Source: Elusimicrobiota bacterium
Lineage (GTDB): Bacteria; Elusimicrobiota; Elusimicrobia; 2-02-FULL-39-32
NCBI GenBank assembly: GCA_016180425.1
Contig: JACPBF010000001.1
Span: 202,744-266,743, forward strand
Reading direction: 5' to 3'
DNA: 64,000 nt
How positions within the stretch are numbered: the stretch's first letter is position 1; the number at the start of each line of letters is the position of its first letter. Shown here piece after piece: positions 17,295 through 49,785 of the stretch. A program made the translations under genes and the position numbers. Below the pieces are notes generated by a model. It was not told the DNA's origin. It searched no databases and saw nothing but the letters and a program-made list of their open reading frames with translations.

Positions 17295-17332
17295 TCATAA
17301 GTAAACGTTTACAAAAAACTTATTTCTATCTA

Positions 17333-17361
17333 TTGACAAAATAACAAATAGATGTTATTTT
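17333..17361 (+). promoter_or_regulatory. major pilin promoter (TTGACA-17-TATTTT)
   Basis: TTGACA at 17333-17338 is followed after 17 bases by TATTTT at 17356-17361, in the 127-base gap between pilC and the pilin. A separate promoter fits the need for many pilin copies. No sigma-54 site (GG-N10-GC) of the kind used for pilA in Pseudomonas is visible. Confidence 0.65.
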
Positions 17362-17365
17362 ATAT

Positions 17366-17388
17366 TTATTCCCTATTTTTGGGAATAA
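17366..17388 (+). promoter_or_regulatory. 8-bp hairpin in the pilin 5' leader
   Basis: TTATTCCC (17366-17373) and GGGAATAA (17381-17388) form a perfect 8-bp stem with a seven-base loop. It falls at the expected 5' end of the pilin mRNA, 33 bases before the ATG and upstream of the GGGGTGAT ribosome-binding site. A 5' hairpin can protect an abundant mRNA from decay; a regulator site is also possible. Confidence 0.45.
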
Positions 17389-17421
17389 CATGCTGGTCCT
17401 TGAAAATAAAGGGGTGATTAT

Positions 17422-17895
17422 ATGATAAAGTCGACAGAATCTAAAGCTCAACGCGGTTTCACGCTGATTGAACTTATGATTGTCGTTGCCATTATTGGTA
17501 TATTAGCAGCTGTAGCGATTCCAAAATTTGCGGATATGTTGCGTAAATCTAAGGAAGGGGCTACAAAAGGTTCTCTCACAAACTTAAGATCCGCGTTGAC
17601 CATTTATATCTCAGACAATGAAGGTTTAGTACCACAAACCTATAGTGCAGCAGGTGACTATACCTCCGGTTCTTTAGTTACTATTCTGGCACCAAAGTAT
17701 ATGGAAGTAATCCCAACAGTAAAATTGGGAACTTATCATAATGACTCTGGCACTATAAGAATGGTAGGTCCTTCTAACCGTTCTTCAGGTCAAAATGATG
17801 GAGCTGGTTGGTGTTATTCTAGTGCAGATGGTGGCGGGTGGTATGTAAATTGTTCCCATACTGATACCAAAAACGTATATATGACAAGCTGGTAA
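17422..17895 (+). CDS. pilA: type IV major pilin
   Basis: The 157-residue protein carries a class III signal [20 protein letters not shown]: prepilin peptidase should cut after Gly12, leaving Phe13 as N-methylated first residue and Glu17 at +5. The hydrophobic helix (13-36) is followed by a globular domain with two cysteines near the end (WCYSS and VNCSH), the usual disulfide-bounded loop. A GGGGTGAT ribosome-binding site, its own promoter and a strong terminator mark it as a highly expressed single gene. A type II secretion pseudopilin is possible, but pilMNOQ nearby favour a pilin. The C-terminal region is rich in Gly, Ser and Asn and may be glycosylated. Confidence 0.92.
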
Positions 17896-17941
17896 GGTAT
17901 AAAATCTTACAGTTACTGTTATAACCAATACGTATAGTTTA

Positions 17942-17985
17942 AAAAGAGGAGAAGACAAAGTTGTCTTCTCCTCTTTTGATTTTTA
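17942..17985 (+). terminator. intrinsic terminator after the pilin gene
   Basis: AAAAGAGGAGAAGACAA (17942-17958) pairs exactly with 17961-17977, giving a 16-17 bp stem with a tiny loop, followed by GATTTTTAAT. It isolates the pilin transcript from the prepilin peptidase gene, whose ATG is at 17989. Confidence 0.88.
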
Positions 17986-17988
17986 ATA

Positions 17989-18750
17989 ATGAACTTCTTT
18001 ATTATTTTCTGCTACGGTTTAATTTTTGGCTCCTTTGCCAATGTTTATTTTTATAGAATTCCAAAACAGTTATCCCTTTGGAGTCCAAAATCATTCTGTC
18101 CTACCTGTAGTCATCCTATTCCATGGCGCGATAATATTCCTCTTTTATCCTATATTTTTCTTAAAGGTCATTGCCTGTTCTGCAAACAAAAAATTTCTAT
18201 TATCTATCCATTGATAGAATTAAGTTGTGGGATTTTATTTCTACTTGTCAGTTTAAAATTTCAAACAGCCCCTAAATCAATGATTATTCTTTATCTAATC
18301 TATTCATTTATCCTTTTTTTGATTAGCGGAATTGATCTTATAACTTATTTTCAGAACAATAAAGAATATGGAATCATTCCCAATGATTTAATCATTATTT
18401 TAGCTGCTGGAGGGCTTTTATTCTCCTTATCTCAACAGGGAGGAATAGCGCAGATCTGGCAAAATTTATTGGGAGGCTTTTATGGCTTAACCCTCATGAT
18501 TCTTGTGCGCTGGTCAGGAGAAAAAATATTTAAAAAAGAAGCTTTGGGTTTAGGAGATATAAAACTGATGGGAGCTGTTGGATGTTGGCTGGGTTGGCAA
18601 GGAACAACTCTTGCCTTGATCTTAGCCTGTATCTCAGGAACGCTTTTTATACTGCCTTTTCTAATTTCAAAAAAACTAGAATCTAATTCCAGTATCCCTT
18701 TTGGACCTTTTTTGTCCCTAGGTTCCTTTAGTGCCCTTTTTATTATTTAA
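17989..18750 (+). CDS. pilD: prepilin peptidase (leader peptidase/N-methyltransferase)
   Basis: This membrane aspartyl protease cuts the leader of type IV prepilins and methylates the new N-terminus. The 253-residue protein has two CxxC pairs (Cys37/Cys40 and Cys62/Cys65) in the cytoplasmic N-terminal domain with the motif HPIPWRDNIPLLSY. The catalytic aspartates are Asp116 in SGIDLITY and Asp190 in GLGDIKLMG. About seven hydrophobic segments are present. It could process the pilin at 17422 and perhaps the internal Flp-like sites of the giant protein at 42070-49785. The end overlaps the next gene by 20 bases. Confidence 0.94.
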   Translation: MNFFIIFCYGLIFGSFANVYFYRIPKQLSLWSPKSFCPTCSHPIPWRDNIPLLSYIFLKGHCLFCKQKISIIYPLIELSCGILFLLVSLKFQTAPKSMIILYLIYSFILFLISGIDLITYFQNNKEYGIIPNDLIIILAAGGLLFSLSQQGGIAQIWQNLLGGFYGLTLMILVRWSGEKIFKKEALGLGDIKLMGAVGCWLGWQGTTLALILACISGTLFILPFLISKKLESNSSIPFGPFLSLGSFSALFII

Positions 18751-20611
18751 TCGTCCTCAAAACTATTTTTTTGTCTCCTTTATCCTCCTCTATTTATTTA
18801 AAGGGGGGAGGGAAATAACTGGTTTAACCATCTATCATATAAGCTCCATTTTTCTTTTTTTGCGTTTCAATCCAAAATTTGAATTTAAGAAAACCGCCAT
18901 TGACTTTCCTTTATTTACATTCATATGCGCATGCGCTTTTGCAACACTCTATTCCATGTTCGCTCAATCCCGTGGACTCATTCATTTTGCGACTCTTTTC
19001 ATACATCTCTTAAATTTCCAGCTCTTATTAAAAATGAATATTGAGAATTTTCAGGAAAAATTCTTTGATTTAATTATCTGGATATGTTCCCTTTCCAGCG
19101 TTTTAATCATGGTGCAAAATTTCTTAAAAATTGCACCTTATTTTTTTCTACCCAATGAAAATCTATTTTCCTATTTTTTAAACATTGGAATACTTTCAGT
19201 CATTTCCAAAATAGTTTTCTCTGGAAAAAATAAAAATATCAAGGATAATCTAAAATCGTCCGGTTTGGTCATTCCCCTTTTACTCATGCTTCATGTACAG
19301 CTTGAATTTTTATCGCGAGGAGCTTTTTTAAGCCTTTTTTTCTCTCTGGCAATTTTACTAATAGGCCATTTCAAAAAATTTATTTTTCCTATTTTTTTAA
19401 CCTGCTTACTTTTCTTTAGCATGCTTCTGATCACTCAAAATAAAACAGAAGCGCTGCTTACTAAATTTATCAATCCAGAGGAATATTCAAGGATAACCCT
19501 ATGGCAAAGTTCCCTAGATGCGTTTTATTCCAAACCTTTTTTTGGTTGGGGACTGGGGAGTTTTGGTCAGGTGTACCAATTAAAAAAGCGTCCTATAGAA
19601 TATGACATAGCACGATATGAAAAAACCACTCGGTTTGCGCACAATGAATTTATTCAAATTGCCGTAGAAATGGGGATCATTGGATTATTATCTTATGTCT
19701 GGTTAATTTTTTCTATTTTAAAATACGGCTTTATTCCCATTAAAAAAGAAGACGATCTAAACTGGGAAAGACCTGCTGCTTTTGCTTCATTTTTTAGTCT
19801 CCTGGCCCAAAGCCTATTTGATTTTAATTTACACTTACCGATTCTTGCTTTACTTTTTATATTTTTCACGATCGTTTTTTTACCTTTAAAATATCCAGAG
19901 AATCAATTTAACCCTAATATTGCATTAAAAAATGAAATATTAGGGTTAAATATTAATTCTATTTATAAAAAAATTTATTTAAAAACACTGCTAATTACCT
20001 GGTTAGTGATTGGAATTACTATTCTTATTTCCCAAACTTTATTTAATCTTGGGTATCTTTTAGAGACTAAAGGCAAAAAGGAAATAACCATTTCTATCTA
20101 TAAATTGGCATCTGCCTTAAATCCATTTAATTCAGAAATTCTAAAAGCAAGGAATTCAATCGTTGAAAACAAATCAGTAAAATTATTAAAACAAGCGATA
20201 CTTTTTAATTCCAAAGATGACAACCTGCATGCAGAACTAGCGCGAAAATATGTAGTAAATGGAAATTATTTAGAAGCTATCCAATCTTATGAAAAAGCGA
20301 TAAAACTCAATCCTAAAAATTGCTTTTATTATTCAGAACTGGCAGAAACCTATCTTTTAATGAAGGAGATAAAACCTGCCTTTAGCCTTTATCAAAAATC
20401 AATACAAATTGAACCATTCTATATTTTAGCTCATGTTAGATTAGGGGATTGTTATCTTTTAAAAGGGGATAAAAACTCCGCATTAAAATTTTTAAAAAAT
20501 GCGTTGCAAATAGCGAGCGCTGATATAAAGCCCTCTAGCCCCTATTCAAAAAGACTGCTTGAATTTAACATGGAGATAATAAAAAATAAAATCAGTGATA
20601 TAAAAAACTAA
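18731..20611 (+). CDS. O-antigen ligase/polymerase-like membrane protein with C-terminal TPR repeats
   Basis: The 626-residue protein has about ten to twelve hydrophobic segments (1-445). It has the Wzy_C/O-antigen ligase signature: WQSSLDAFYSKPFFGWGLGS and, in the following periplasmic loop, FAHNEFIQIAVEMGIIGLL. The C-terminus (about 485-605) has three TPR-like units such as YVVNGNYLEAIQSYEKAIKL. These enzymes transfer or polymerise lipid-linked glycans in the periplasm. The GTG start lies inside pilD, so translation is coupled. Position next to pilin and prepilin peptidase suggests a pilin O-oligosaccharyltransferase (PglL/TfpO type), an inference from context. Confidence 0.8.
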   Translation: MPFLLFNRPQNYFFVSFILLYLFKGGREITGLTIYHISSIFLFLRFNPKFEFKKTAIDFPLFTFICACAFATLYSMFAQSRGLIHFATLFIHLLNFQLLLKMNIENFQEKFFDLIIWICSLSSVLIMVQNFLKIAPYFFLPNENLFSYFLNIGILSVISKIVFSGKNKNIKDNLKSSGLVIPLLLMLHVQLEFLSRGAFLSLFFSLAILLIGHFKKFIFPIFLTCLLFFSMLLITQNKTEALLTKFINPEEYSRITLWQSSLDAFYSKPFFGWGLGSFGQVYQLKKRPIEYDIARYEKTTRFAHNEFIQIAVEMGIIGLLSYVWLIFSILKYGFIPIKKEDDLNWERPAAFASFFSLLAQSLFDFNLHLPILALLFIFFTIVFLPLKYPENQFNPNIALKNEILGLNINSIYKKIYLKTLLITWLVIGITILISQTLFNLGYLLETKGKKEITISIYKLASALNPFNSEILKARNSIVENKSVKLLKQAILFNSKDDNLHAELARKYVVNGNYLEAIQSYEKAIKLNPKNCFYYSELAETYLLMKEIKPAFSLYQKSIQIEPFYILAHVRLGDCYLLKGDKNSALKFLKNALQIASADIKPSSPYSKRLLEFNMEIIKNKISDIKN

Positions 20612-20615
20612 AAAT

Positions 20616-22136
20616 ATGCTTTATTTAATCAGTTCCATCATCTTTTGCAGCTCTGTCTTTTGGATGAAAGATACTGTGGACTATTTTAGTTGGACGATTT
20701 TTGAAATGTCAGCCACCCTTCTATTGATTCACTTAATACTCAAGAAAAAAATTTTATTGCCAGAAAAAAAGCAATTTTTACCCATTCTTCTCTTTATTCT
20801 CTGGTCAGCTTGTTCTCTTTTTTGGACCCAAAATTTTCATGCCACTCTTACTGCTCTTTACAAAATATTCTTTTCATTGTTCATTCTCATTTTATTTATC
20901 AATGAAAACCTGAAATGGGAAAGTTCCTTAAGACGAACGATCATCTTTATAAGCATTTTAGTCACACTATTTTATTTTTTAAATTCAATCTATTCCTTAT
21001 CCGATTTTTTCCTCATGTCTCACCCTAATTTGTTTTCTTCTTTCCTGGCTTCTGGAGCAGTTTTAGTCACCAATCAGATTTTTAAAACTAAAGGCTGGAA
21101 ACAATGGCTCTATTTAAGCTTCTCAATATTAATGCCTATGACTATTTTACTCATAGGATCTTTAGGCCCGCTCCTAGTTTGGGGGTTCGGAACCATTGCG
21201 CTTTTCCTCCTTCTATACCGAAAAAAAATTTATATTTTAGGGATAGGACTTTGTCTCATATTTTTGCTCTCCATCTTACAAAATTCATTTAGCACACTCT
21301 GGAAAAGAAAAATGACTGATCCTTATACTCAAGAAAGGGCTCAAATCTGGAAAGATGGTTTAAGCTATCTTATCTATTACCCCTTAAAAGGGTCTGGTCT
21401 GGGCACTTTCCGAGATCATTACCCCCAATTTAAACAAATCGAGGGTTTTAGAAACGCTCCTTATGCCCACAATGAGCTTTTAAATTTTTTATGTGAGTTA
21501 GGGACCGTTGGATTCATCATTTTACTTTTAATTATAAAAAGCTTGATGTCCCCTTTAAAAGGGACGCGCGAGCTTTTTCAAAATCAGGAAGAATGGTTAG
21601 CGATCTTAATAGGATTAGGGATTCAATCTCTTTTTGATTTTAATTTACATTATCCACCGCTTTTACTCATCATGATTTTCTCAATTTCAAAAATATTTAA
21701 AACTCGAGAAGCGCAAATCAACAATAGGAGCACTAAAATATTTTGCATCAGCGGCATATCCATCCTAGGCATATTATTTTCTCTCCCAGGAATCGCTGAT
21801 TTTATCTTTAGGAAAGCCTATCCTAATCTAGAAGAAAGAAAAAAAGCAGCTGCATTCGCGTTAAAAATTGACCCTTTTAACGCTTTATACCGATCTGAAA
21901 CAGGGCTTGCCCGAGATCTCTTGATAGCCATAGACCTAGAACCAAGAAACGTTTGGTACCATAGAAAAGCTGCTGCCTTCTTTTTTCAGGAATGGCAAAA
22001 AACAAAAAATAAACTTTATTACCAAGCAGCTGTTGAAGAGTATAAAATCATCTTTCATCTAGCGCCAAATGTCTTAAAATTTAAAATTGAAGCGGAACAG
22101 TTTTTCTCTCTCAAAATCGAGAATATTAGGGATTGA
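20616..22136 (+). CDS. second O-antigen ligase/polymerase-like membrane protein
   Basis: This 506-residue polytopic protein starts five bases after the first ligase-like gene. It shares that gene's signature: RAQIWKDGLSYLIYYPLKGSGLGTFRDHY and APYAHNELLNFLCELGTVGFI around residues 240-300. Ten or so hydrophobic segments fill residues 1-390. The C-terminal soluble tail (about 400-500, AAAFALKIDPFNALYR) has one or two degenerate TPR-like helices. It is probably a paralogue of the upstream gene. The TGA stop overlaps the -35 box of the next promoter. Confidence 0.78.
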   Translation: MLYLISSIIFCSSVFWMKDTVDYFSWTIFEMSATLLLIHLILKKKILLPEKKQFLPILLFILWSACSLFWTQNFHATLTALYKIFFSLFILILFINENLKWESSLRRTIIFISILVTLFYFLNSIYSLSDFFLMSHPNLFSSFLASGAVLVTNQIFKTKGWKQWLYLSFSILMPMTILLIGSLGPLLVWGFGTIALFLLLYRKKIYILGIGLCLIFLLSILQNSFSTLWKRKMTDPYTQERAQIWKDGLSYLIYYPLKGSGLGTFRDHYPQFKQIEGFRNAPYAHNELLNFLCELGTVGFIILLLIIKSLMSPLKGTRELFQNQEEWLAILIGLGIQSLFDFNLHYPPLLLIMIFSISKIFKTREAQINNRSTKIFCISGISILGILFSLPGIADFIFRKAYPNLEERKKAAAFALKIDPFNALYRSETGLARDLLIAIDLEPRNVWYHRKAAAFFFQEWQKTKNKLYYQAAVEEYKIIFHLAPNVLKFKIEAEQFFSLKIENIRD

Positions 22137-22161
22137 CAAAGGAATAATCTTCTGCTATATT
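22133..22161 (+). promoter_or_regulatory. pilMNOPQ promoter (TTGACA-17-TGC-TATATT)
   Basis: TTGACA at 22133-22138 and TATATT at 22156-22161 are spaced by 17 bases, with an extended -10 TGC directly before the -10 box. It lies between the ligase-like gene and pilM and should drive the secretin alignment complex operon. The leader to the pilM ATG is about 50 bases. Confidence 0.78.
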
Positions 22162-22219
22162 CAAATCACAAAACTCTTTTCTTTATTTTTACAGAATGGA
22201 GTAGTTCTTTAATTTATAA

Positions 22220-23365
22220 ATGACATTAGATCTAACAGAACTAATAGATAAGCTCCCGCCTCTTAAGATACCCTATTTACATTCCAATGAGACAATTGGA
22301 ATTGATTTGGGTTCATCTTCCATTAAAATCGTTCAGTTAAAAAAAACAAAAAAAGGAAATTTAGAATTGGTTCGATGGGCGATCCTACCCCTTTCCCAGC
22401 CAGGAGAAGGTGAAAAAGTTGAGCTAAACCCGGAAGAAAAAAAGGCCTTTGCTATTCAAAGTTTAAAAAGTTACAGGGGAAGCGGGAAAAAAATTCCTAA
22501 AAGCGCATGTACTTCTGTAGCTGGAACCTCTATCATTGTCAGATATGTTAAATTCCCAAAAATCGTCCCTAAAGAATTCATAAAAAATATAAAAAAAGAA
22601 GCTGAGTCCTATATTCCCTTTAATATCGAAGAGGTTTATCTTACTTATTTTCCTTTAAGAAATATCCAGGAGGATGGCAAAGAACTTACAGAAACAGTCT
22701 TGGTGGCGGCAAAGAAAGATTTCATCAATCAAAAAATAGAAATCTTAGAAAATTCAGGCTTTAAAGCATCTGTGGTTGACATAGATGCTTTTGCTTTAGA
22801 AGCGATTTACACGCTCACCCAAGATAAAACTCCAATTGAAGAAATCGCGCTAGTCTCTAATATCGGTCATCAAAAAACAAATTTTGTAATCATTGAAAAA
22901 GGGGTTTCTGTGGTTGTAAAAGATAGTCCCATTTCTGGAAACTCAATAGAAAAACTAATCATGAAAAATTTATTGGTGGATTCGAAAGCTGCGGAAAAAC
23001 TAAAACTTGCCTATGGACTTCTACTGAATACGGAAGAAAAAGAAGCTGCCGGCAAGGAAGGCCAAACAGTCTCAGATGCGATTCTTATGACCATGAAAGA
23101 CTTTATTTCAGAAACAAAAAAAATCATTCAATATTATGCCACACAGGCGAAAGATAAAAAAATCAATCGTCTTTTAATAGCAGGGGGCACGAGCAACATC
23201 AAAAATTTAGCAAATTATTTGAGCTCTGAATTAAATCTGCCGGTTGAAAAACTAAACCCCTTAAAAATGATTTCAGGAGCTCAAGCAGTACCTGAGGATG
23301 CTCAAACTACGCTTGCCATCGCTTTGGGACTTGCCTTAAGAAAATCAGGAGATATTAAACTATAA
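22220..23365 (+). CDS. pilM: type IV pilus assembly protein PilM
   Basis: PilM is a cytoplasmic actin-like ATPase-fold protein that binds the PilN N-terminus and links motor and envelope complexes. The 381-residue protein has the actin-like phosphate motifs GIDLGSSSIKIVQLK (about 28-42) and LLIAGGTSNIKNLANYLSSEL (about 318-338), with SYIPFNIEEVYLTYFPL in between. It is first of five co-oriented genes pilM-N-O-P-Q. No Shine-Dalgarno sequence is seen before the ATG (TTTAATTTATAA). Confidence 0.92.
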   Translation: MTLDLTELIDKLPPLKIPYLHSNETIGIDLGSSSIKIVQLKKTKKGNLELVRWAILPLSQPGEGEKVELNPEEKKAFAIQSLKSYRGSGKKIPKSACTSVAGTSIIVRYVKFPKIVPKEFIKNIKKEAESYIPFNIEEVYLTYFPLRNIQEDGKELTETVLVAAKKDFINQKIEILENSGFKASVVDIDAFALEAIYTLTQDKTPIEEIALVSNIGHQKTNFVIIEKGVSVVVKDSPISGNSIEKLIMKNLLVDSKAAEKLKLAYGLLLNTEEKEAAGKEGQTVSDAILMTMKDFISETKKIIQYYATQAKDKKINRLLIAGGTSNIKNLANYLSSELNLPVEKLNPLKMISGAQAVPEDAQTTLAIALGLALRKSGDIKL

Positions 23366-23378
23366 AGCAAAAAAATTT

Positions 23379-23954
23379 ATGATAAAAATTAACCTTCTTC
23401 CCAAAGAGCTGCAAGAAAAGGATAAGGGATTAGATTGGGTAATCTTAGGGTACGCAATTATAGGGATACTGATCATTGCCGGAACTTCTATTTATTTTAT
23501 TCAAATAAATGACTATAAGAAAGAGCTTAAGAAAAAAGAAAGATGGTCATCCCAGCTGGCGGGGATCAAAGCAAAAGTAGCTCAAGTTGAACAATTAGAC
23601 GCTCAAAAAAATATTCTCAATGCTAAAAAAAATACTGTGGTTGAATTAGTAAAAGCCCGTCTCCTCTATCCAAAATTTATGGAAACATTGTATCAAACCC
23701 TTCCAGGGGACATCTGGCTGGATGCGCTCTCTTTAAGTGAGGATGGACAAAAAAACTTGCAAACAATCTTGGTTTCAAATTCTCTTACTACAGATTCTAT
23801 TGCGGATTGGCTGCAAAGCATGGAATCAAACACAAAACTATTTTCAAATATATCTCTCAGCGCGATAGAGGTGAATGAAGCTTCTTTGCCCGGAACATCC
23901 TACTTTAAATTTACTCTAAATTTTACTTATCAACCGCCGGCAGCTCAAAATTAA
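23379..23954 (+). CDS. pilN: type IV pilus assembly protein PilN
   Basis: The 191-residue protein begins MIKINLLPKELQEK, the PilN motif that docks in PilM. One membrane helix follows (about 22-44), then a coiled coil (45-85) and a periplasmic ferredoxin-like domain with TLPGDIWLDALSLSEDG. PilN and PilO form the inner membrane alignment subcomplex. Spacing to pilO is one base, so the two are co-translated. Confidence 0.9.
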   Translation: MIKINLLPKELQEKDKGLDWVILGYAIIGILIIAGTSIYFIQINDYKKELKKKERWSSQLAGIKAKVAQVEQLDAQKNILNAKKNTVVELVKARLLYPKFMETLYQTLPGDIWLDALSLSEDGQKNLQTILVSNSLTTDSIADWLQSMESNTKLFSNISLSAIEVNEASLPGTSYFKFTLNFTYQPPAAQN

Positions 23955-23955
23955 A

Positions 23956-24504
23956 ATGGATAAAAAACAACTGCAATTTTTAATCATCCTTATACCGATT
24001 CTAATCATAGGCATAAATTTCGGTTTTTATAAATATCTTTTTAATCCACTCTCTGAAAGAAAAAAAATCTTAAAAGGCGAGCTGGAGCAGATTAAAAAAG
24101 AATATCAGGAATCCGTAGGTCGTACGGCAAGGCTGCCAAAACTACAGGAAGAAATTGCTGTTTTGAATCAGGAAATTTTGGAAGTTGAAAAAAAATTACC
24201 CAAAGATAAAGATGTTCCTTCTTTAATACGTCTGCTTTCAAAAAAAATGGATTCTCACAGCGTTAGCTGGACAAGGCTCGCTCCGGGAAATCAAACAAGC
24301 AAAGATTATTATATAGAACATACTTATACGATTCCCTTTTCCGCTTCCTATCACAATCTGGCTACCTTCCTAACTGAAATCGGTCAACTAGAAAGGATAT
24401 TCTCAAGTAGATTTTCTAAATTATCATCCGCCATTAACTCAAAAACTGGAGAAAATGAGGTGAGCGGTGAATTAACTTTTCTTATTTATACCTCTAAAGG
24501 ATAA
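23956..24504 (+). CDS. pilO: type IV pilus assembly protein PilO
   Basis: The 182-residue protein has a short cytoplasmic start, one membrane helix (about 7-29), a coiled coil (about 35-85, rich in Glu/Lys) and a compact periplasmic domain. The typical phrase VPSLIRLLSKKMDSHSVSWTRLAPG marks the start of the PilO fold, and YHNLATFLTEIGQLERIF is also typical. It partners PilN in the ring between PilM and the secretin. The order pilM-N-O is conserved. Confidence 0.88.
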   Translation: MDKKQLQFLIILIPILIIGINFGFYKYLFNPLSERKKILKGELEQIKKEYQESVGRTARLPKLQEEIAVLNQEILEVEKKLPKDKDVPSLIRLLSKKMDSHSVSWTRLAPGNQTSKDYYIEHTYTIPFSASYHNLATFLTEIGQLERIFSSRFSKLSSAINSKTGENEVSGELTFLIYTSKG

Positions 24505-24515
24505 ATGTTTTTAAA

Positions 24516-25016
24516 ATGATAAAAATTCTTTATTTATTATTTATGTCTTTAACTTTAAGTTCCTGTTCAAAAAAAAATGTAGAAGAAAACTTGAATATAC
24601 TCTACCCAGAAACACAAATTGCTGTTCAAAAAAAAATTGTCCCGCAACTTGAAAGCGCTAAAAAGGAACCTATCCCGCGTTTTATTTATGGCGCAAATTC
24701 AGGAAGAGATCCATTTCTTCCTTTGATTGGGGATTCTTCCAGCTCCAAAGGAGTAAAATCTCAAACTAGGAGAGACCCGCAAAGAAGCGCTGAAAATTTT
24801 TCCCAGCTGGAATTAAAGGGGATTTTAAAAGATAAAGATGGTAAAATAGCTTTGATTATTTCCAGAGACGGGGAGTCCTTTACCCTTAAATCAGGGAAAC
24901 TGTATGATAAGAGGAGTCAAACCATTCAAAACATAACCGGCATTATAAAAGAAACGAGCGTTGTTCTTTATGGAAAAAATAAAACGATTAAAGAATTGCA
25001 TGTCATTAAAAAATAA
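24516..25016 (+). CDS. pilP: PilP-like pilus assembly lipoprotein
   Basis: The 166-residue protein has a short lipoprotein signal ending in the lipobox LSSC (Cys17), which should be acylated. A flexible region follows, then RDPFLPL and a small beta domain LELKGILKDKDGKIALIISRDG, the fold used by PilP to bind the secretin N0/B domains. Sequence is weakly conserved, so the call leans on position between pilO and pilQ. The gene is 11 bases after pilO. Confidence 0.78.
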   Translation: MIKILYLLFMSLTLSSCSKKNVEENLNILYPETQIAVQKKIVPQLESAKKEPIPRFIYGANSGRDPFLPLIGDSSSSKGVKSQTRRDPQRSAENFSQLELKGILKDKDGKIALIISRDGESFTLKSGKLYDKRSQTIQNITGIIKETSVVLYGKNKTIKELHVIKK

Positions 25017-25069
25017 GTCATTAGGGAAATAAAATTAAATCAGATTTAATAACGGGGGAAATTTAAAAT

Positions 25070-27055
25070 ATGATAAACTCTTTTAAAATGGTAAAAAAGT
25101 TCCTTACCTTTTTAATATTATTCGTCTCTACCCTAATTTTTTTAAACATTCACGCTCTCCATAGCGTGAATGTGGACATGACGGATTCAGAGTCATCTCA
25201 CAGTAAATTTTCAATATTAAAAGAAGTTCAGCTCAAAGACAATATGGTTTCGATCACTTTAGATAAATTAGCCCCATTTAATATTTTTAAAGTAGGCTCT
25301 CCACCCAGATTAGTTGTAGAACTTATCCAAACTGAAAATGACTGGAAAACAAAAGTGATCAGCCCTGAAAAAAATTCTATTTTTACCAGGATTCGTTCAG
25401 GACAATTCCAAAATGAACCGGTCAAAATTGCCCGCGTGGTTATGGAACTAAAAGCGCCTGTGGAATTTGAAACTAAAACTGAAGGGCAAACCATATGGGT
25501 CATCCCTAAAAAAATGGAAAAAAATGCGGCTGAACCAATGCTCACGACGATTACAAATTCTCAAAGCTCTTATACTCCACCTTCATCTGAAGAAACAAGT
25601 TCAATAAAACATTCGACTCCACTACCTCTATCTTCTCCTTTTGTTTCTCCAACATCTTCTCCGGTTTTACCAAAAACCTCTACACAGGAAACATCACAAG
25701 TGACCCCAAATCAACCTTTGAACAATGAGCCTATCCTCAAAGAAAACCTGCATGATCCATCTGACCCCACTACCTTTTTTGGCAGACAACTAGTGACATT
25801 AGATTTTTTTGATATTGAAATTAAAGACCTGTTTAAAATATTAGGAGATAAAGCTGGGGTGAATGTGGTATTTGGCAATAATGTTTCTGGGACAGTTTCA
25901 ATCCAATTAAAGGATGTTCCTTTTAAAGATGCGGTTAGCACCATTTTAACCTTAAAAAACTTAAAAATTATCTCTTTAGGTAAAAATATTTTACAAGTAA
26001 TGACTGCGGAAGAATTTGATCAATACAAAACTAAAGCGATCTCAGTAACTAAAATGTTTCAAGTCAATTATGCTAAAGCAAGTGATGTAAACACCCAATT
26101 AACCTCTATTTTAGCTACACTCTCCGGTAAAGGAAAAACATTGGTGGATGACAGGACAAATTCCATTATTGTGACAGACACGCCTGAAGGCATTGAACTA
26201 GTCAATAAATTAATTAGCGATTTAGATAAACCCACCCCTCAGGTAATGATTGAAGCGAAAATTGTGCAGGTGACTCTTGGTAAAAGTTTAGATTTAGGGA
26301 TTACATGGGGGGCTGCTTATACAGATAGATCAGGCAACCAAATGATCACCATTGGCGCGGCAAAAGCATCCAAAGCCGCGAGCAGCGCTGATTCAGAAAC
26401 TCCAGGATCTGGAAGCATTGGTCTTATGACTAGAACTCCTCTTAATCCATCAGGTGGTTCAGATTTAGAAGCCACTGGAGCAGGTTTTACACCAGCTCAA
26501 GGGTTGGGCCTTTCTTTTGGCTTTGTTAAAGATGTGGTGCGGCTGAATGCCGCATTAAGCGCGCTTGCGCAAAAAAATAAATCTAAACTCCTATCTAATC
26601 CAAAAGTTGCCACGCTTAATAATAAACCCGCATCCATCAAATCTGAAATCTCAGAACCTTATATTACAACTGAAACACAACTAACCAATGCTGGAACTCT
26701 AACTTCTCAAAAAGTGAATACAGCTAAATCTGGCATTACTCTTACGGTTACACCAACCATTAATGCGGATGGAAGAATTACGCTTAAAATTGTGCCAGAT
26801 ATTACTTCTTCTCAACCTACCTCAATAGGTGTTCCAAAAACCACCAGCCAGCAAGCTGATACCACTGTGATTGTAAAAGATGGGGAAACCTTTGTGATTG
26901 GAGGATTAATCTCAGAACTTGAATCAGATCAAAAAGCTTATATACCCATCTTAGGCAGAATCCCGATTCTTGGACACCTCTTTAAAAAAACTGGCACTTC
27001 AAAAACCAGAGCAGAGCTGCTTGTCTTTGTAACGCCTAAAATTATTCCTTATTAA
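25070..27055 (+). CDS. pilQ: type IV pilus secretin PilQ
   Basis: PilQ forms the outer membrane gate for the pilus. The 661-residue protein has a signal peptide (about 1-28), an AMIN domain (about 50-145, LDKLAPFNIFKVGSPPRLVVEL), and a Ser/Thr/Pro linker (about 160-225). An STN/N0 domain (about 240-315), an N1 domain (about 322-390, IVTDTPEGIELVNKLISDLD) and the secretin barrel follow. The barrel has LSNPKVATLNNKPA and the C-terminal GETFVIGGL and IPILGRIPILGHLF. It closes the pilMNOPQ operon. An 11-bp hairpin lies in the signal-peptide coding region. Confidence 0.95.
   Translation: MINSFKMVKKFLTFLILFVSTLIFLNIHALHSVNVDMTDSESSHSKFSILKEVQLKDNMVSITLDKLAPFNIFKVGSPPRLVVELIQTENDWKTKVISPEKNSIFTRIRSGQFQNEPVKIARVVMELKAPVEFETKTEGQTIWVIPKKMEKNAAEPMLTTITNSQSSYTPPSSEETSSIKHSTPLPLSSPFVSPTSSPVLPKTSTQETSQVTPNQPLNNEPILKENLHDPSDPTTFFGRQLVTLDFFDIEIKDLFKILGDKAGVNVVFGNNVSGTVSIQLKDVPFKDAVSTILTLKNLKIISLGKNILQVMTAEEFDQYKTKAISVTKMFQVNYAKASDVNTQLTSILATLSGKGKTLVDDRTNSIIVTDTPEGIELVNKLISDLDKPTPQVMIEAKIVQVTLGKSLDLGITWGAAYTDRSGNQMITIGAAKASKAASSADSETPGSGSIGLMTRTPLNPSGGSDLEATGAGFTPAQGLGLSFGFVKDVVRLNAALSALAQKNKSKLLSNPKVATLNNKPASIKSEISEPYITTETQLTNAGTLTSQKVNTAKSGITLTVTPTINADGRITLKIVPDITSSQPTSIGVPKTTSQQADTTVIVKDGETFVIGGLISELESDQKAYIPILGRIPILGHLFKKTGTSKTRAELLVFVTPKIIPY
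25146..25173 (+). promoter_or_regulatory. perfect 11-bp hairpin within the start of pilQ
   Basis: ACATTCACGCT (25146-25156) and AGCGTGAATGT (25163-25173) pair perfectly around a six-base loop. It lies in codons about 26-35, just after the signal peptide. It might slow translation during export or tune operon mRNA stability. Function is unknown. Confidence 0.4.
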
Positions 27056-42069: not shown

Positions 42070-45000
42070 TTATGCGTTGATCTTTAGGAATCTCTCGTGA
42101 GCGAATTCGTCTGAGAGTTCTTTGAGTTTAAGCACTGGTTTTAGAAATGCAGCTTCCAAAAGATAATAAATATCAATATTTTTATTCTCATTTGTCTCCC
42201 AATCCCAGTTGTCCAGATTGGCAGTGATGACCTTCACTCCTAAACCAGCGAGCTTCATTCCATCCAACTCCTTAAAAAGCTCATCTAAACTCATCTTTTC
42301 TCCCTGTTGCGCTTGGAGATAAAGGATGTTAGTAAGATCTACGCCTGCTAATTCTTTAGTTTGATGTAAGTTCTGCTCAATGGTTTCAGAACTATAGCCT
42401 TTTGCCTGAAGCGCAAACTTCTCTCCTGACTCTGCCAATTTCTTGATAGCAAGAGATGTTTTTGCCTTCTCTTCTTCAGTGCCATTCATAAGAGGAGTGG
42501 CATCTATCACTTTAAAACCTTTCCCAAGTTTAGTAATGGACATTAAAACCTGTTGTACCATTTTCTTAGCCCAACTTAAGAGAATCACACCTCTATTATA
42601 GGCTGCTTCAAAAGCTCTTGCATTCTCCTGATTCAATTTCAATCCACCTAATATCCATTGCGCCTTTACATAATCTTCCTTATGAGCTCTTTTAGCTCTA
42701 ACATCAAAATATTGAAGCAATTCTTTGGTTGGAACTACCTCTTGTTCCTTAAAAATTTTCTGAAGAAGTTCAACATCTCCTCCGCTTGCAGAAATCGCAA
42801 ATAAAATTTGTTGTATCTTCTCTGTTACTACTCTTTCATCTTCTACCCTATCCTCATAGGTACTAATCTTAGCCAATGATTCTTCAATATATCTTTTTAG
42901 CTCTGCCTTTGTAGCAGAATCAAGATCATTAGCGCTGCCTTTCAAAGCAATTGCAATGATTTTCTCATCCAGCTTCCCTACCTCTACATCTTTCGCTTCC
43001 TCAATCTTTTTAGAGATTTCAGCATTCACTTTTGCCTTTTTATCTTGAATAGTCCTGAAAACTCGAGCCACAAAATGCGAAGCTACTACAGCTCCTAAAA
43101 TGGTCAATCCAATGGGAGGATTTATAATCGCAAGCACTGCAGCTAAAGCTATAATCAAGCCATATTCGCTCATCGCTTTACCGTCATTTTCTTTAATCAA
43201 TTCATTAATCTTTTGCATGGGAGATGGCTCAGGTTTTGGAGATACTGAAAAGGTTGCTTCATTCTCTGCTGCCATGGCTGGCAAATCACCAGTAAATCCT
43301 GCGATAAAATCTTTTGCTAAGTCTAATAGTGAGGTTCTAGCAGAACCTAATGGCAATGTCTCTGTCTGTTCAGTTGTTCCATAAGGATATGTATAAGATG
43401 TAGATCCACTGGGATTTTTCTCAGGTATGATCGCTGTATATTTCACCACAATCGCATCATTGCTGACCGTAAAGTCCCTGATGATCATCTTCTCATTACC
43501 CTTTCCAAAAAATTCAAATACTACATCTCCATTTCTGTCTAAAACAATCAGAGTAGAGGTAATAGATTCATCATCCCGCTTCATAACTAAATATCTGCTG
43601 TCAGGACTGAATCTTACGTCCCAAACACTGGTTCTATACTCATCATAACTATGTGTAAAAATTACTCTTTCTAATCCAGTCTCTAAATTCTTCAGAATCA
43701 AACTATGCCTTTTTTCAACATTGTCATTATTCACATAGACCTCTAATTTCTGGTCATCACTTTGAGAAAACAGATAATGACTCTGCTCATTTTTCACAAA
43801 ATCTCCAAATTTAGCATCTATTACCCCTTTTATCTCCTCCTCTGAACTAAGATAAGGAATAGAAAGTGTCTCATCCAATCCCATCACTTTAAATCCTCTG
43901 TCATATCCATTATCCATCCCTACCCTGACCACCTGGTAAGTAAATAAAATATTAGTATCATCTATTACTACATCTTTAATCGCAGCATTCACCTGACGAT
44001 CATAACGATAATTTTTATCCTGAACAGGAAACTGTAAAATCTTGTTCCCATTTAAATCAAAAAGTTCGTAATAGTGAGTCTCTACACCCTTGATCCGATT
44101 ATATGTATTAAACTGCACACCAACAGTTTTGCCATTTGGACTTATATGAACTTTTAAAGGATATCCCCTTGTGTAATCAACCCAAAAAGAATGTTTATAT
44201 TTCATAGTCCCCGGCTCTGTTAAAATAAGTTTAAAACCAGGTCCACCTGATATATGTGGGCCATAATAACTAAAACCTATGGCATCAGCTCTTAAATGCT
44301 CATTCTCTGCGCTGGCTAATAAATTCTGTCTAACATGAGTAACAGGATTATTTGGATTCTGCTCAAAAAGAGGATACTTGTGAGGATAATTACCGGCATA
44401 CTCTACCACTATAGAATCAGTAGCGATGTTTTGAGGAGTTTGCGATGGTTGAGGAGTTGTTATAACAGCAGCTGTTTCTGTAGGTTGAGGAGTCGTCGCA
44501 GGAGTAGGTGATACCACAGCGCTTGCTGTTGCACCAGAGGCTTGAGCCACTGTAGGAGTTGGCGTTGTAGCAGGAATTAAATTTGGCAACCCGATCGCGG
44601 CACAGGCTGTGTTGAACAAAAGTACAACCCCAGCCAAAGGAGCATAAAAGGAGAAAAGTCTTCCTCCTGGCACTTTCCAATCATCAGAAATATTTCTACC
44701 AAGTGGCAGAGAATCATACTTCCAAGCTAAAAAGAGAACCAGTCCAGCTACAAACCCTATAAACACAATAGATTCAAGACCTCCAGAATTCATTCCATGA
44801 GCGATCCATCCTAATATAGAACCATCCAAGATAGAGGAAGAGGTAGCTGCAGAAGTTGTTACAGAGGCTGTTGCATTTTGCGAAAGTAAAACTGCTGCCT
44901 GAGCCGGGGGGCAAGCATTCAATAAAATAAGAGCAACAGCTGCAAAGATAGCAAGAATCAGACTATACTCTACGTTCGCTTGTCCACCTTCATCTTTTAA

Positions 45001-48000
45001 AATATCTCTTAATGAATCCGAGTCAACTTTTAATCTATTATTATTACTGTCCATAACCCACAGATTTCCATCAGTATCAAATTCTATGCTTCTAGGAAAA
45101 GTAAACTCACCAATCTCTGTTCCTACATTTTCCACCACACTCCATTCTCCTGTATCTTTATTCCATATTTGTAGCCTGTTGCTATCGGTCTCAACAACCC
45201 AGAGATTCCCTTCTGAATCAAACATAATATCGTGAGGATAACTAAACTCGCTCGACTCTGTTCCTTGCGTTTCCACCACCGCAATGCTCTTAAATTCTTC
45301 TTCACTTTTACCAGGGACAGGTTTACTCAGCTCTCTACTTATAAATTGATCCGATAAAGATAAAACAAGTAGATTATAGACTGAAATACTGAAGGCCTCT
45401 ATAAGATAAGCGAATGTGAGAGACATGAATAAAGAAAAGGGTGCGGAATAAAGAGAAGAAACCATTGGCAGAGCAAGAGCAAATGAAAAAACAAAAATGG
45501 CTCCTCTAATGGGAAGTACCAAGATACCTTCTATAAGCATACTAATGTGACGAGGAATCCCATTGTGAATCGAAAAAAACGTAACGTTAACAGCAACTCC
45601 CATCGACGCTACAATCGAAAAACCAATGGTTCCAAACTCTAATCCAAAAAATATAACTGCAATCGTTAGAGGAATAAATTGAAATAAAGCAGATTCTATC
45701 CATGGAGCAGCGATAAGTTTATCAAATTGGTATTTTGCAATTTTTTTAGAAAGAATAGCTGCGGGAGAATCTTCATTTCTAGCTTCAATATCTTTATGCC
45801 TCATATAAGCTAATAATATTATTATTGCAGGCGCCAAAAGAATTAAGAAAAACAGTAGTTGACTCTCTCTATGACCAGAGGTAGGCTTTGATGAATCAAT
45901 TTTCTGCTTTCCCATGACTACTACTTCTCCTCGCATCATTTCAGATATATACCTATCCCCAACAGAATAATCCGCTCTTGGCCTTGGAGATTGCTTTACA
46001 TATACAGGAGACCCTTTCTCTTTAGCTTCTGTAGGAATCCCTACAAACCCAAGAAAGAAATCACGCGCTCCATTGATCACATGATCGCTTAAGGAAAGCG
46101 TATGGTTAGCATTTTCAGTAAACATGTTGGTTGGATCAGTAAAAAGTTTGGAATAATCACCAAAACCTCGTACTCTAAAAGTACCTTGGCTATGAGGACT
46201 ATTAGCATAAATGTTGATTTCTCTAACCCTCATCTGACCTAAAGTAGTGTCAGCTAGGCGTAAATCTGGGGAGAGAATTCCTGTCCTCCATTTACCCTTT
46301 TCTAATTTTCTAAGAGAGAATCCATGACTCCTAAGTTTATCATCCTTAATTTCCAAAATAATCTCCTGGTCTTTATCCCCATCTACTGAAAAATAGTATG
46401 GTTTATTGATTACAATGCCTTTCTCCCCGCCAACCCGGTGCCATACCCCGCTTGCAATAAACTCACGCTCTACATGTGTTTCAGGCGAATATTTGACAAT
46501 AGTAATGGGATTCCCTTTTTCGTCTTTATCATAAAAAATCGCTACTCCGCGTCTTTTTGTGGCAGTAATTCCCATATTATCTCTTCCAACCAACGGTAAA
46601 GATATAGTATTTGCTTCTACTGCACTTAGAGCTTTGCCAGTCACAATATCTATCTCTTGTCCAGGCGAGGCTCCTGCTTGAAGCTGAGAAAGTGTTTCTA
46701 CGTTAGTTACTAATATGAAACCGCCATTTTTATTCAATTTATAGATTGTGCTTTGCCCCTGCTGATTGCGAATAATGACATAATCTCCATCCTCTTTTTT
46801 TTCTAATACCATGGGCATTGCATTTAATAAGGGCTGATTGTTAAAAAAGATGTTGGAACCACCCATATGCATACCATCTCTAAGCCTGCGTACATGTAAG
46901 GATGATCTCCCTTGATCATCCTCATGAATCACAACATATTCTTGATCAGAACTAAATTCATAATTTTTAATATTTTTATATCTCTTTTTCTCATAAGTAA
47001 TAATATATTCTTCGTCACCTTCAAGCGCAGCATAAGTTTTAATAAATACCCTTGGACCATATCCATCATTCTTATCTTTTTCAAAAGGTTCATCCTTTAC
47101 TAAAAGTACTAGTCTCCTGCCAACAAACTGAGGATTTTCTATGCTCCCTCTAATTGTTGTTTTCTTTTTTCTACCAGTTACATGATCTGTTATTATCAGT
47201 TCACCTTGTCCATACATTAATCGGCTAGATATATCTTTCACAAATCTGGCGGTAAACCTTCCATCTGAACTTTTAATTTCCCAATAATTTTTTCCTGTTA
47301 CATCTCCCTTGTTAAAATTAATATCCACATTGTTTTCTATATTTACATTCGCCTCTGCTTTAACATCTACCAACGGCGCATTCATATTGATATTAAAAGC
47401 ATTGCCGCAGGCAGCGGCAAGCAGCGCATAAACAATCATGAATCCTTGACGTACTTTACTCTTAACTTTAGGGGGAATAGAAAAGGGTTTTACCTGTGCT
47501 AAAAAGCTCGGTTTTTCAAGCGCGAGGACTCTTTTTGAACCATCTTTAAAATCAATTGACTCTGTCTCTTTAATTTTGTTTTTCTGTTTTTTCAATAGCT
47601 CCTGAATAGCCTCATTATTCTTAGCCAATGTTTTATAAAAACGATAGCTCCTCTGGCCATCTCGGACATTAACAATAGTAACGCCTTGCTCTGACTTTTC
47701 TTCTTTGATCTGAACATTCGCAGCTTCTGCAATTTTGTCCTTAATTCCATTGGATGAGCTCTCAGCTGGCGTTAAAATCTTAAAAGTTCTACCAACAATG
47801 CTGGCAAGTTTGTCATCTCGGTTAAGTTTAACTGCTCCCTCTAAGGCTTGGGGGGGATTAATGGTGAGCTTCTCTGGATAAAACATCTTTTCTAAAGGAA
47901 GCGCATCTCTTTTAAATGCGTTTAAAGGATGATAATCCTCTTTAAGGTCAGAGGTTTCCATATTGGGACGAATCACAATGTAGGAAATATCCTTTTTCTT

Positions 48001-49785
48001 TAATAGTTCTTCTAAACCGCGGGTGTGATAGCCTCCAGCTACCAGCGCTGAAATTCGTGACCCAGAATTCAAATCTTCTGTTTTGGAATTTTTGGAATTC
48101 AGGTTTCTAGACTCTAATTTAGAAATTAGTTTTTGAACAAAAATCTGATTTCTTTCATGAGACAATTCATTAAATCGCGAGACATTCTTTAATGCTTCCT
48201 GGACCGGTTGGGTTTGAGGATTCAAAACTTGAATCCCAATTTTTTCAATCTCCCCTTTCCTTTGATTGAACTCTTTCCACTCCTCAGGACTCAATTTAAA
48301 ATCAAGCGCTTTAGTTAAGAGCCTATAATCCTGATCCATCTGAACCAAAGATCGAATATTGGCAGAAGCTCCTTTCATGAGATATCCAACTACTTGATCT
48401 TCTAATTTCTTTACTTCCTCAAAAAGTTTCTCCCGATCAATTCCATCTACAAGGACCACATATTTCATGTATTTATCTAATTCAGGAGCAATGAAAAGTT
48501 TTGCTTTCTCACAACGATCTTTAAGCGCAGCATAAAACTCAACATAGCTGATTTTCCCTAAACGATAAGCTAAACTTTCCTCAAGCAGCTCAACTAACTG
48601 ATTTTTGGTTAATTTTTGCGAGAGCTGCTCCAATATTTTCTTTTGTTCAGCGCTAACTTCTTTAAAATTAATTGTTTTTTCTAATTCATAAGCTTTTGCG
48701 TATTTGCTTAAATTAAAAGTTAAAATCTTTGAATCTCTCTTAGATAGCCCTTGAATCCATTCTCCAAGTTTTAACTCTCCTTTCTCATATAAATCCCTGT
48801 TTTTATCCAGTTGTTTAAGTTCAAGACTATAGATTCTCCCTTTAGAAGACTCAATTGCAGTTTTAGTCTTTTCAAGCCAGCTAGATACCTCTCTGTTTCC
48901 AACGATTGTATCCGTAAAGCTCTTGACCTGTTCCAAATAGTTATCTTTCTCTTCCACTCCATAAAATTCTACGCCACTAGATACAAGATGATTCTTAAGG
49001 CATGTGTCATGAACTTTATTTTCACACAATTTTCCATGCTTCAAATAATTGGAAGAAATTGGAGAACTGGCTAAACCTGCAACTTCCACTCCACTTAACA
49101 GCCCTTTTTCCAATAAATAGTTTGCCACCTTCATTAAACTCGCTTTATCCGGATAATTTCTCCATTGATAGACCCCAGTCATCTCTCCAGAAGCGCCCTC
49201 TACACCGACCAACCTCACTCCAAAATTGTTTAACCCTTTTATCAGCTCTGATATATTCTTTTGCACCCCATAAATTCCATGAGCATCCTGAATAAGAATC
49301 ACTAAAGATTTAGAGTTAGGGGTCGTTGAATTAGGATTTATAAGTTGAAGAATAGGCGAGTTCAGAGAATTAGAAAGCTTTAGAGTTTGAGAATTGGCAA
49401 GATAGAGCCTTTCAACTTCTCCATAAGTCTCAACCTGGTTCACAAATGCTTGAGGAAGATCTAAATGAATCTTGGATGAATGCTGAATTCTCCCGCTTCT
49501 TACCTTATTTAATAGCTCCTGCATTGCGCCATGACTTACCAGAGTTTCAGGAGTAGGTAGGGCAATGCTGTTTCCAACCATTGTTTCATAGGAAGGGAGC
49601 CCTGTAGCTGAAGCAAGCTCCATAGGCTCTTTTTTTAAGTCTTCAACTGCTTTGCGCCGTTCATTCCATAAATTTGCTGAAGCAAAAGGAGCGCTGACTG
49701 TGGTAAAGAAAAAACTGGTCGCCACCAATCCTCCAGTGAGTTTCAACCAGCTCCTATTTTTTTGTCCAACCCAAAACTGAATCAT
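42070..49785 (-). CDS. giant multi-domain exported/membrane protein with internal prepilin-like segments
   Basis: The frame is open for 2571 codons and starts at an ATG preceded by GGAGGTGATTTAA. Visible parts: signal peptide (about 14-38, ending ASA); a domain at about 150-600 with LIQDAHGIYGVQKNI (Asp167, His169), VGVEGASGEM and LVAGGYHTRGL (His587), resembling the ChaN/TraB/TIKI superfamily; a hydrophobic patch ending LLAAAC (Cys793). A beta-propeller-like region spans about 800-1235. A polytopic block covers about 1310-1490, and two NHL-like repeats about 1512-1590. A Flp-prepilin-like segment (Gly1601|QANVEY) follows. Then come another lipobox-like NTAC (Cys1728), a Pro/Thr linker (about 1735-1788), a second propeller-like region (about 1790-2155), a second Flp-like segment (Gly2202|KAMSEY) and a helical C-terminal region. 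The function is unknown. It is flanked by two toxin-antitoxin modules. Confidence 0.85.
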   Translation of the reverse strand: MIQFWVGQKNRSWLKLTGGLVATSFFFTTVSAPFASANLWNERRKAVEDLKKEPMELASATGLPSYETMVGNSIALPTPETLVSHGAMQELLNKVRSGRIQHSSKIHLDLPQAFVNQVETYGEVERLYLANSQTLKLSNSLNSPILQLINPNSTTPNSKSLVILIQDAHGIYGVQKNISELIKGLNNFGVRLVGVEGASGEMTGVYQWRNYPDKASLMKVANYLLEKGLLSGVEVAGLASSPISSNYLKHGKLCENKVHDTCLKNHLVSSGVEFYGVEEKDNYLEQVKSFTDTIVGNREVSSWLEKTKTAIESSKGRIYSLELKQLDKNRDLYEKGELKLGEWIQGLSKRDSKILTFNLSKYAKAYELEKTINFKEVSAEQKKILEQLSQKLTKNQLVELLEESLAYRLGKISYVEFYAALKDRCEKAKLFIAPELDKYMKYVVLVDGIDREKLFEEVKKLEDQVVGYLMKGASANIRSLVQMDQDYRLLTKALDFKLSPEEWKEFNQRKGEIEKIGIQVLNPQTQPVQEALKNVSRFNELSHERNQIFVQKLISKLESRNLNSKNSKTEDLNSGSRISALVAGGYHTRGLEELLKKKDISYIVIRPNMETSDLKEDYHPLNAFKRDALPLEKMFYPEKLTINPPQALEGAVKLNRDDKLASIVGRTFKILTPAESSSNGIKDKIAEAANVQIKEEKSEQGVTIVNVRDGQRSYRFYKTLAKNNEAIQELLKKQKNKIKETESIDFKDGSKRVLALEKPSFLAQVKPFSIPPKVKSKVRQGFMIVYALLAAACGNAFNINMNAPLVDVKAEANVNIENNVDINFNKGDVTGKNYWEIKSSDGRFTARFVKDISSRLMYGQGELIITDHVTGRKKKTTIRGSIENPQFVGRRLVLLVKDEPFEKDKNDGYGPRVFIKTYAALEGDEEYIITYEKKRYKNIKNYEFSSDQEYVVIHEDDQGRSSLHVRRLRDGMHMGGSNIFFNNQPLLNAMPMVLEKKEDGDYVIIRNQQGQSTIYKLNKNGGFILVTNVETLSQLQAGASPGQEIDIVTGKALSAVEANTISLPLVGRDNMGITATKRRGVAIFYDKDEKGNPITIVKYSPETHVEREFIASGVWHRVGGEKGIVINKPYYFSVDGDKDQEIILEIKDDKLRSHGFSLRKLEKGKWRTGILSPDLRLADTTLGQMRVREINIYANSPHSQGTFRVRGFGDYSKLFTDPTNMFTENANHTLSLSDHVINGARDFFLGFVGIPTEAKEKGSPVYVKQSPRPRADYSVGDRYISEMMRGEVVVMGKQKIDSSKPTSGHRESQLLFFLILLAPAIIILLAYMRHKDIEARNEDSPAAILSKKIAKYQFDKLIAAPWIESALFQFIPLTIAVIFFGLEFGTIGFSIVASMGVAVNVTFFSIHNGIPRHISMLIEGILVLPIRGAIFVFSFALALPMVSSLYSAPFSLFMSLTFAYLIEAFSISVYNLLVLSLSDQFISRELSKPVPGKSEEEFKSIAVVETQGTESSEFSYPHDIMFDSEGNLWVVETDSNRLQIWNKDTGEWSVVENVGTEIGEFTFPRSIEFDTDGNLWVMDSNNNRLKVDSDSLRDILKDEGGQANVEYSLILAIFAAVALILLNACPPAQAAVLLSQNATASVTTSAATSSSILDGSILGWIAHGMNSGGLESIVFIGFVAGLVLFLAWKYDSLPLGRNISDDWKVPGGRLFSFYAPLAGVVLLFNTACAAIGLPNLIPATTPTPTVAQASGATASAVVSPTPATTPQPTETAAVITTPQPSQTPQNIATDSIVVEYAGNYPHKYPLFEQNPNNPVTHVRQNLLASAENEHLRADAIGFSYYGPHISGGPGFKLILTEPGTMKYKHSFWVDYTRGYPLKVHISPNGKTVGVQFNTYNRIKGVETHYYELFDLNGNKILQFPVQDKNYRYDRQVNAAIKDVVIDDTNILFTYQVVRVGMDNGYDRGFKVMGLDETLSIPYLSSEEEIKGVIDAKFGDFVKNEQSHYLFSQSDDQKLEVYVNNDNVEKRHSLILKNLETGLERVIFTHSYDEYRTSVWDVRFSPDSRYLVMKRDDESITSTLIVLDRNGDVVFEFFGKGNEKMIIRDFTVSNDAIVVKYTAIIPEKNPSGSTSYTYPYGTTEQTETLPLGSARTSLLDLAKDFIAGFTGDLPAMAAENEATFSVSPKPEPSPMQKINELIKENDGKAMSEYGLIIALAAVLAIINPPIGLTILGAVVASHFVARVFRTIQDKKAKVNAEISKKIEEAKDVEVGKLDEKIIAIALKGSANDLDSATKAELKRYIEESLAKISTYEDRVEDERVVTEKIQQILFAISASGGDVELLQKIFKEQEVVPTKELLQYFDVRAKRAHKEDYVKAQWILGGLKLNQENARAFEAAYNRGVILLSWAKKMVQQVLMSITKLGKGFKVIDATPLMNGTEEEKAKTSLAIKKLAESGEKFALQAKGYSSETIEQNLHQTKELAGVDLTNILYLQAQQGEKMSLDELFKELDGMKLAGLGVKVITANLDNWDWETNENKNIDIYYLLEAAFLKPVLKLKELSDEFAHERFLKINA
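43066..43182 (-). other. second internal class III prepilin-like segment of the giant protein
   Basis: Residues 2202-2240 read G|KAMSEYGLIIALAAVLAI and more hydrophobic residues. Glycine, four residues, Glu at +5 and Tyr at +6 match the Flp prepilin cleavage motif, and the helix after it is long enough to span a membrane. Whether it is cut is untested. Confidence 0.5.
44911..44988 (-). other. first internal class III prepilin-like segment of the giant protein
   Basis: Residues 1600-1625 read GG|QANVEYSLILAIFAAV and end at LLNAC. Glu1606 lies at +5 from the glycine and Tyr1607 at +6, exactly as in Flp/TadE-type pilins (G|xxxxEY). The cysteine at 1625 also sits in a lipobox-like context. Confidence 0.5.

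Follow-up and report, generated by a model that had tools for sequence, protein, structure and literature searches.

The window, which is the whole stretch of 64,000 nucleotides analysed here, comes from a 2.6 Mb Elusimicrobiota genome (G000) and holds a cluster of type IVa pilus genes and a giant open reading frame, called W below. The sister genome (G001, Elusimicrobia MAG RIFCSPLOWO2_02_FULL_39_32) carries a full-length orthologue of W on its contig. The features are as follows (+, forward strand; -, reverse strand; a slash marks the predicted cleavage point of a signal).

16083..27055 (+): type IVa pilus genes, encoding PilC, major pilin (GFTLIE), PilD, PilM, PilN, PilO, PilP and secretin; native pilin at 17422-17895
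17989..18750 (+): PilD-type prepilin peptidase (A24_N and A24; CPTC..CLFC and GLGD present)
42070..49785 (-): giant ORF W, 2571 aa in a single frame, conserved over its full length in G001 (2586 aa)
49675..49785 (-): Sec-type signal peptide of W, M1-A37, FASA/N, read from the sequence
47806..49368 (-): head domain of W, residues about 140-660, with conserved QDAH...GVEG...GGYH
45886..47328 (-): propeller-like region 1 of W, residues about 820-1300, assigned by eye
45355..45873 (-): multi-helix membrane region of W, residues 1305-1477, from hydropathy
45025..45291 (-): NHL repeats of W, residues 1499-1587 (PF01436, 36 bits)
44881..45021 (-): Flp-type segment 1 of W, leader DSLRDILKDEGG / QANVEYSLILAIFAAVALILL, Gly1601/Gln1602
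43306..44418 (-): propeller-like region 2 of W, residues about 1790-2160, with weak Pfam propeller matches
43057..43221 (-): Flp-type segment 2 of W, leader MQKINELIKENDG / KAMSEYGLIIALAAVLAIINPP..., Gly2202/Lys2203
42073..43056 (-): C-terminal helical module of W, residues 2244-2571, with homologues in two further genera of the family

The Sec-type signal peptide of W is common to many sibling giants. The head domain matched about 30 places in each genome of the genus and many across the class; no Pfam match to it was found in W, and no credible PDB match was obtained when a head-domain profile was compared with PDB sequences. By eye it resembles TIKI/ChaN. AlphaFold models from two-sequence alignments were too poor for use, with mean pLDDT of 34 for the head and 36 for segment 2 plus the C-terminal module. 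Comparison with the sister orthologue indicated purifying selection on W (dN/dS of 0.33 overall and 0.16-0.56 in well-aligned parts), with values of 0.16 for the head, 0.20 for the C-terminal module and 0.24 for segment 2.

The first-pass annotation had described two internal Flp-type motifs in W, each followed by a helix, and both were found at the residues it gave. They are G/QANVEY at Gly1601 (codon 44983-44985), behind the Flp-like leader ILKDEGG, and G/KAMSEY at Gly2202 (codon 43180-43182), behind LIKENDG; a hydrophobic helix follows in each case, and that of segment 2 may form a hairpin. Both sites thus have the Gly at -1, the Glu at +5, the Tyr at +6 and the hydrophobic helix of a Flp/Fap pilin, but they do not stand near the N-terminus of a short protein after 6-26 leader residues, since they lie at residues 1601 and 2202 of 2571. 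The expected propeller beside each site was borne out only in part: NHL repeats stand ahead of segment 1, whereas residues 1790-2160, which follow a Pro/Thr-rich linker, gave sub-threshold propeller matches only. Of the pilin profiles, Flp_Fap (PF04964) matched segment 2 only, and weakly (9.9 bits against a cut-off of 32.2), and the TadE-type minor pilin profile PF07811 had no match in W at E <= 1.

In a long protein a short motif could be matched by chance. When the residues of W were shuffled window by window with the hydrophobic patches held in place, two or more G-x4-E-[YF] sites with a helix were seen in 3/2000, 0/2000 and 0/2000 trials (block sizes of 8, 12 and 16), in agreement with the earlier view that the two matches are hardly accidental. 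The profile scores, the restriction to one genus and the retention of the motif in homologues and in masked-profile matches, described below, point the same way. The earlier reading of the segments as genuine Flp-type prepilin signals is therefore well supported, and a chance origin is extremely improbable.

The best Flp_Fap match in the source genome (33.8 bits, the sole one above the cut-off) was found inside a 5918-aa frame, the C6 sibling of W. A profile built from seven segments retrieved five more, all within giant frames and all with Gly at -1 and Glu at +5. With the resulting 12 segments as query, 12 Flp-type segments in G000 and 9 in G001 were obtained, all inside frames of 1047-13472 aa. 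At least a dozen giant proteins of the genus contain prepilin signals, sometimes two or three per chain. Tyr or Phe stood at +6 in 15 of the 21. The search covered 248 genomes of the phylum, two of them from the genus; outside the genus, all 43 matches (in 41 of the 246 other genomes) were stand-alone ORFs of 55-106 aa. At a looser threshold, two of the matches outside the genus fell in longer frames: a weak one in a frame of 839 aa (G044, E 0.0014), probably unrelated, and one in a frame of 171 aa. Neither the genus nor the searched genomes of its family, several of them incomplete, yielded a stand-alone Flp. It is nearly certain that giant mosaic proteins took up Flp prepilin signals, which were then multiplied and shuffled within them. 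The internal leaders are less positive than most stand-alone Flps of the class and similar to those of the KDESG-subtype Flps; leader charge was considered as a case against cutting and set aside, being strong against same-class Flps and weak against the KDESG subtype.

According to the first-pass annotation, loss of Gly and Glu from homologues that keep the helix would speak against its reading. This was mostly not what was seen. The motif of segment 2 is identical in the sister orthologue of W; segment 1 keeps its Gly there, with Glu replaced by Asp and Tyr by Phe; and another genus of the family, searched with a query lacking the motif, yielded a C-terminal-module homologue with DARG/QETTEY before its helix. 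The synonymous divergence between W and its sister was 0.83 over segment 1 and about 0.1 in the flanks, which indicates that segment 1 is a swapped module rather than a point-mutated one. In the sister orthologue the NHL stretch ahead of segment 1 is replaced by an extra, third Flp-type segment, DESGQAKVEFGVIL. A profile masked at the Gly, Glu and Tyr places returned 20 intact segments (Gly in 20/20, Glu in 19/20, Asp in 1/20); because these 20 are in, or near-identical to, the training set, it serves as a search for further decayed copies and not as an independent sample. It did find a decayed one in G001, in which the Gly and the Glu are both Ala and the helix is intact; the G000 orthologue of that segment keeps G/EGLVEY and has lost the helix. 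The modules, their spread, their swapping and the retention of the motif were thus read directly from the sequences.

The giants also contain other kinds of signal. Internal type-IVa-style G-[F]-[T]-x-x-E sites were seen nine times in the giants of G000 against 0.4 expected; such sites, e.g. KSG/FTLLETVGTVAIL, occur in proteins of 6930-10904 aa in G000 and of 10729 aa in G001, and the internal G/FTxxE segments score up to 25 bits with N_methyl (PF07963, cut-off 21.2). Several G/FTxxE plus helix segments are present per giant (L115/L116, L009 and L117/L118; L120/L121 in G001). In L110 and L136, internal Sec-signal-like stretches, e.g. KRRLFLRSLKVLALAAALGAASAQA, occupy the place that the Flp-type helix has in other giants and precede the same C-terminal module. 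Internal lipoprotein boxes of LAAC type were considered as a third class and are not claimed (six were seen where about 2.5 were expected, and shuffles reached six at most).

Among the other contents of the giants are degenerate housekeeping-enzyme relatives (FBPase, GDH, malate synthase and isocitrate lyase; PRODH, PGK and HAD; PP2C), in the frames of L009/L033 (C33, a 6930-aa ORF), L030 (a 4131-aa ORF) and L110 (a 5781-aa ORF); several score far below equivalog cut-offs. A cassette of about 650 aa, consisting of an LAAC-ended helix, a Pro/Thr linker, a propeller-like part and a Flp-type helix, is present in one and absent from the other of the homologues L031 and L137 (G001 C10:62451).

The degenerate enzyme relatives, the decayed Flp segment and the cassette missing from one of two homologues would be expected if the giants were accretion frames that take up gene fragments, with the prepilin signals as passive, decaying relics of fused pilin genes. 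Against this, W is under purifying selection in its head, C-terminal module and segment 2; 20 of the 21 segments show no decay at Gly or +5 although their helices share little identity; and no remaining source pilin gene was found in the genome for the 12 copies. We regard passive accretion as unlikely.

As the first-pass annotation had stated, a prepilin peptidase is encoded in the window; it is PilD-type and intact, lies within the type IVa operon and is the sole A24 peptidase found in G000. Three O-antigen-ligase (Wzy_C) genes lie in or beside the pilus cluster (window positions 18731-22136 and 27131-28588). Each tested genome, including those with RcpC, had a single A24 peptidase, apart from the incomplete G024, in which none was found. 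PilD may accordingly serve both pilin types, and PilD-type enzymes have been described as promiscuous (PMC12075869). Neither G000 nor G001 has the Tad marker RcpC/CpaB, which the tested relatives with stand-alone Flp do carry. PF13629 was tried as a second Tad marker and was uninformative, since it is missing even from RcpC-positive genomes. It has been reported that the prepilin leader is normally N-terminal and of 6-26 residues, that the Gly is critical for processing, and that Glu+5 is dispensable for cutting yet important in assembly (PMC4471445).

The explanation that we prefer as a whole, at a little below even confidence, is that captured modules insert the giants into the membrane and that some are cut by PilD into pieces. 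W is one of a group of giant, modular envelope proteins that begin with the same Sec signal and head domain. The unit of leader, Gly, Glu+5 and helix was taken from small pilin genes and then copied, and the Flp modules were exchanged between giants as interchangeable membrane-insertion units; they still bear the recognition features of a prepilin peptidase. The helix of a module would enter the inner membrane, and at least the sites with a cytoplasmic leader would be cut after the Gly by the one PilD, which the type IVa operon encodes; the giant would then fall into pilin-headed pieces anchored in the membrane. The cutting, the topology and the fate of the pieces are what we infer; putative cutting of the giants into subunits by PilD is possible. 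Among the points in favour of the explanation are the confinement of the genus segments to giant frames, the Gly and acidic +5 residues of the masked-profile segments, the G/QETTEY of the C-terminal-module homologue, the swapped segment 1 that still keeps the Gly and an acidic +5 residue, the excess of type-IVa-style internal sites over their expected number, the single intact PilD and the need of processing for the Gly. Among those against it are the missing RcpC/CpaB in the genus, leaders of hundreds to thousands of residues, without precedent in the literature searched, and the decayed segment with a helix but no Gly or Glu, whose orthologue has G..EY without the helix.

The predicted topology differs between the two sites of W. 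By the positive-inside rule the leader of segment 1 would be cytoplasmic, and cutting there would be allowed. A single outward helix at residues 1715-1733, ahead of the Pro/Thr-rich linker, suggests that the leader of segment 2 lies outside the cell, which would block cutting, so the topology for cutting at segment 2 is doubtful.

The captured Flp signals might instead act only as transmembrane or hairpin anchors that stay uncut, with one chain threaded through the membrane; Gly and Glu would then persist through a need in helix packing or insertion, or by descent. This is a real possibility, nearly as likely as the cutting reading. Several segments have 29-39 hydrophobic residues, a Pro/Gly break and then Lys/Arg, much like a hairpin anchor; one helix persists without Gly or Glu; the Tad marker is absent; and the Glu, which cutting does not need (PMC4471445), is as strongly conserved as the Gly. 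On the other hand, a Glu in an anchor helix that lacks a pilin partner should drift, while 20 of the 21 masked-profile segments keep Gly and an acidic +5 residue and the remainder of the helix varies; the presence of both Flp-type and type-IVa-type sites also counts against simple anchoring. Conservation of Glu+5 is no proof of cutting, because cutting does not require it (PMC4471445). Since the Gly is essential and Glu+5 serves assembly, joint retention of the two fits pilin-like use better than a plain anchor and proves neither.

Separate short prepilins might also be made from within the giant frame by internal translation starts. An ATG does lie 12 codons ahead of the Gly of segment 2, and in the C5 segment ATGs stand at -10 and -8; but in several segments the stretch 5-30 codons ahead of the Gly contains no start codon, and in C14 none occurs within 40. 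No strong Shine-Dalgarno match was found upstream of any segment, a weak test because such matches are rare at the annotated starts of the window. Internal Shine-Dalgarno and start sites were set aside, as no consistent pattern emerged across segments, and this origin is very unlikely.

Returning to PilD processing, its more specific form is that a lineage without the Tad marker or a stand-alone Flp turned Flp signals, together with type-IVa ones, into internal processing sites of giant polyproteins, which its housekeeping PilD would cut into several pilin-headed envelope subunits. We offer this only tentatively, as possible but on the less likely side. If the sites are cut, they would constitute a polyprotein system run by a prepilin peptidase; the literature searched offered no precedent for one.

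Prepilin signals are known as N-terminal leaders of short pilins. The 21 internal ones, confined to giants of one genus, are clear evidence that signals were captured and modules shuffled, and they offer a testable entry to otherwise unexplained Elusimicrobiota giants. Huge, poorly characterised proteins are known to abound in Elusimicrobiota (PMC11573180). The giants resemble the huge proteins reported in Elusimicrobiota and Omnitrophota (PMC11573180, PMC10066038) in being very long and mostly unannotated, and those of Omnitrophota in being multi-helix; no mention of internal prepilin sites was found in either paper. With Flp/Fap pilins (PF04964; the type IVc/Tad major pilins) they share a leader ending in Gly, G/QAxxEY and a hydrophobic helix, and one sibling segment exceeds the Pfam cut-off. 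They differ in that the signal is internal, behind hundreds to thousands of residues, and in that no short pilin protein is involved and RcpC/CpaB is missing from the genus. The G/FTxxE segments of sibling giants resemble type IVa prepilins (PF07963), with N_methyl scores that reach above the cut-off, but are internal and several per chain, in proteins of 7000-11000 aa, and W has none. The large minor pilins of Tad tips, of TadG/KilN type, also join a prepilin signal to large extra domains (PMC12075869); theirs leads the protein, whereas that of the giants is internal and sometimes occurs two or three times in one chain.
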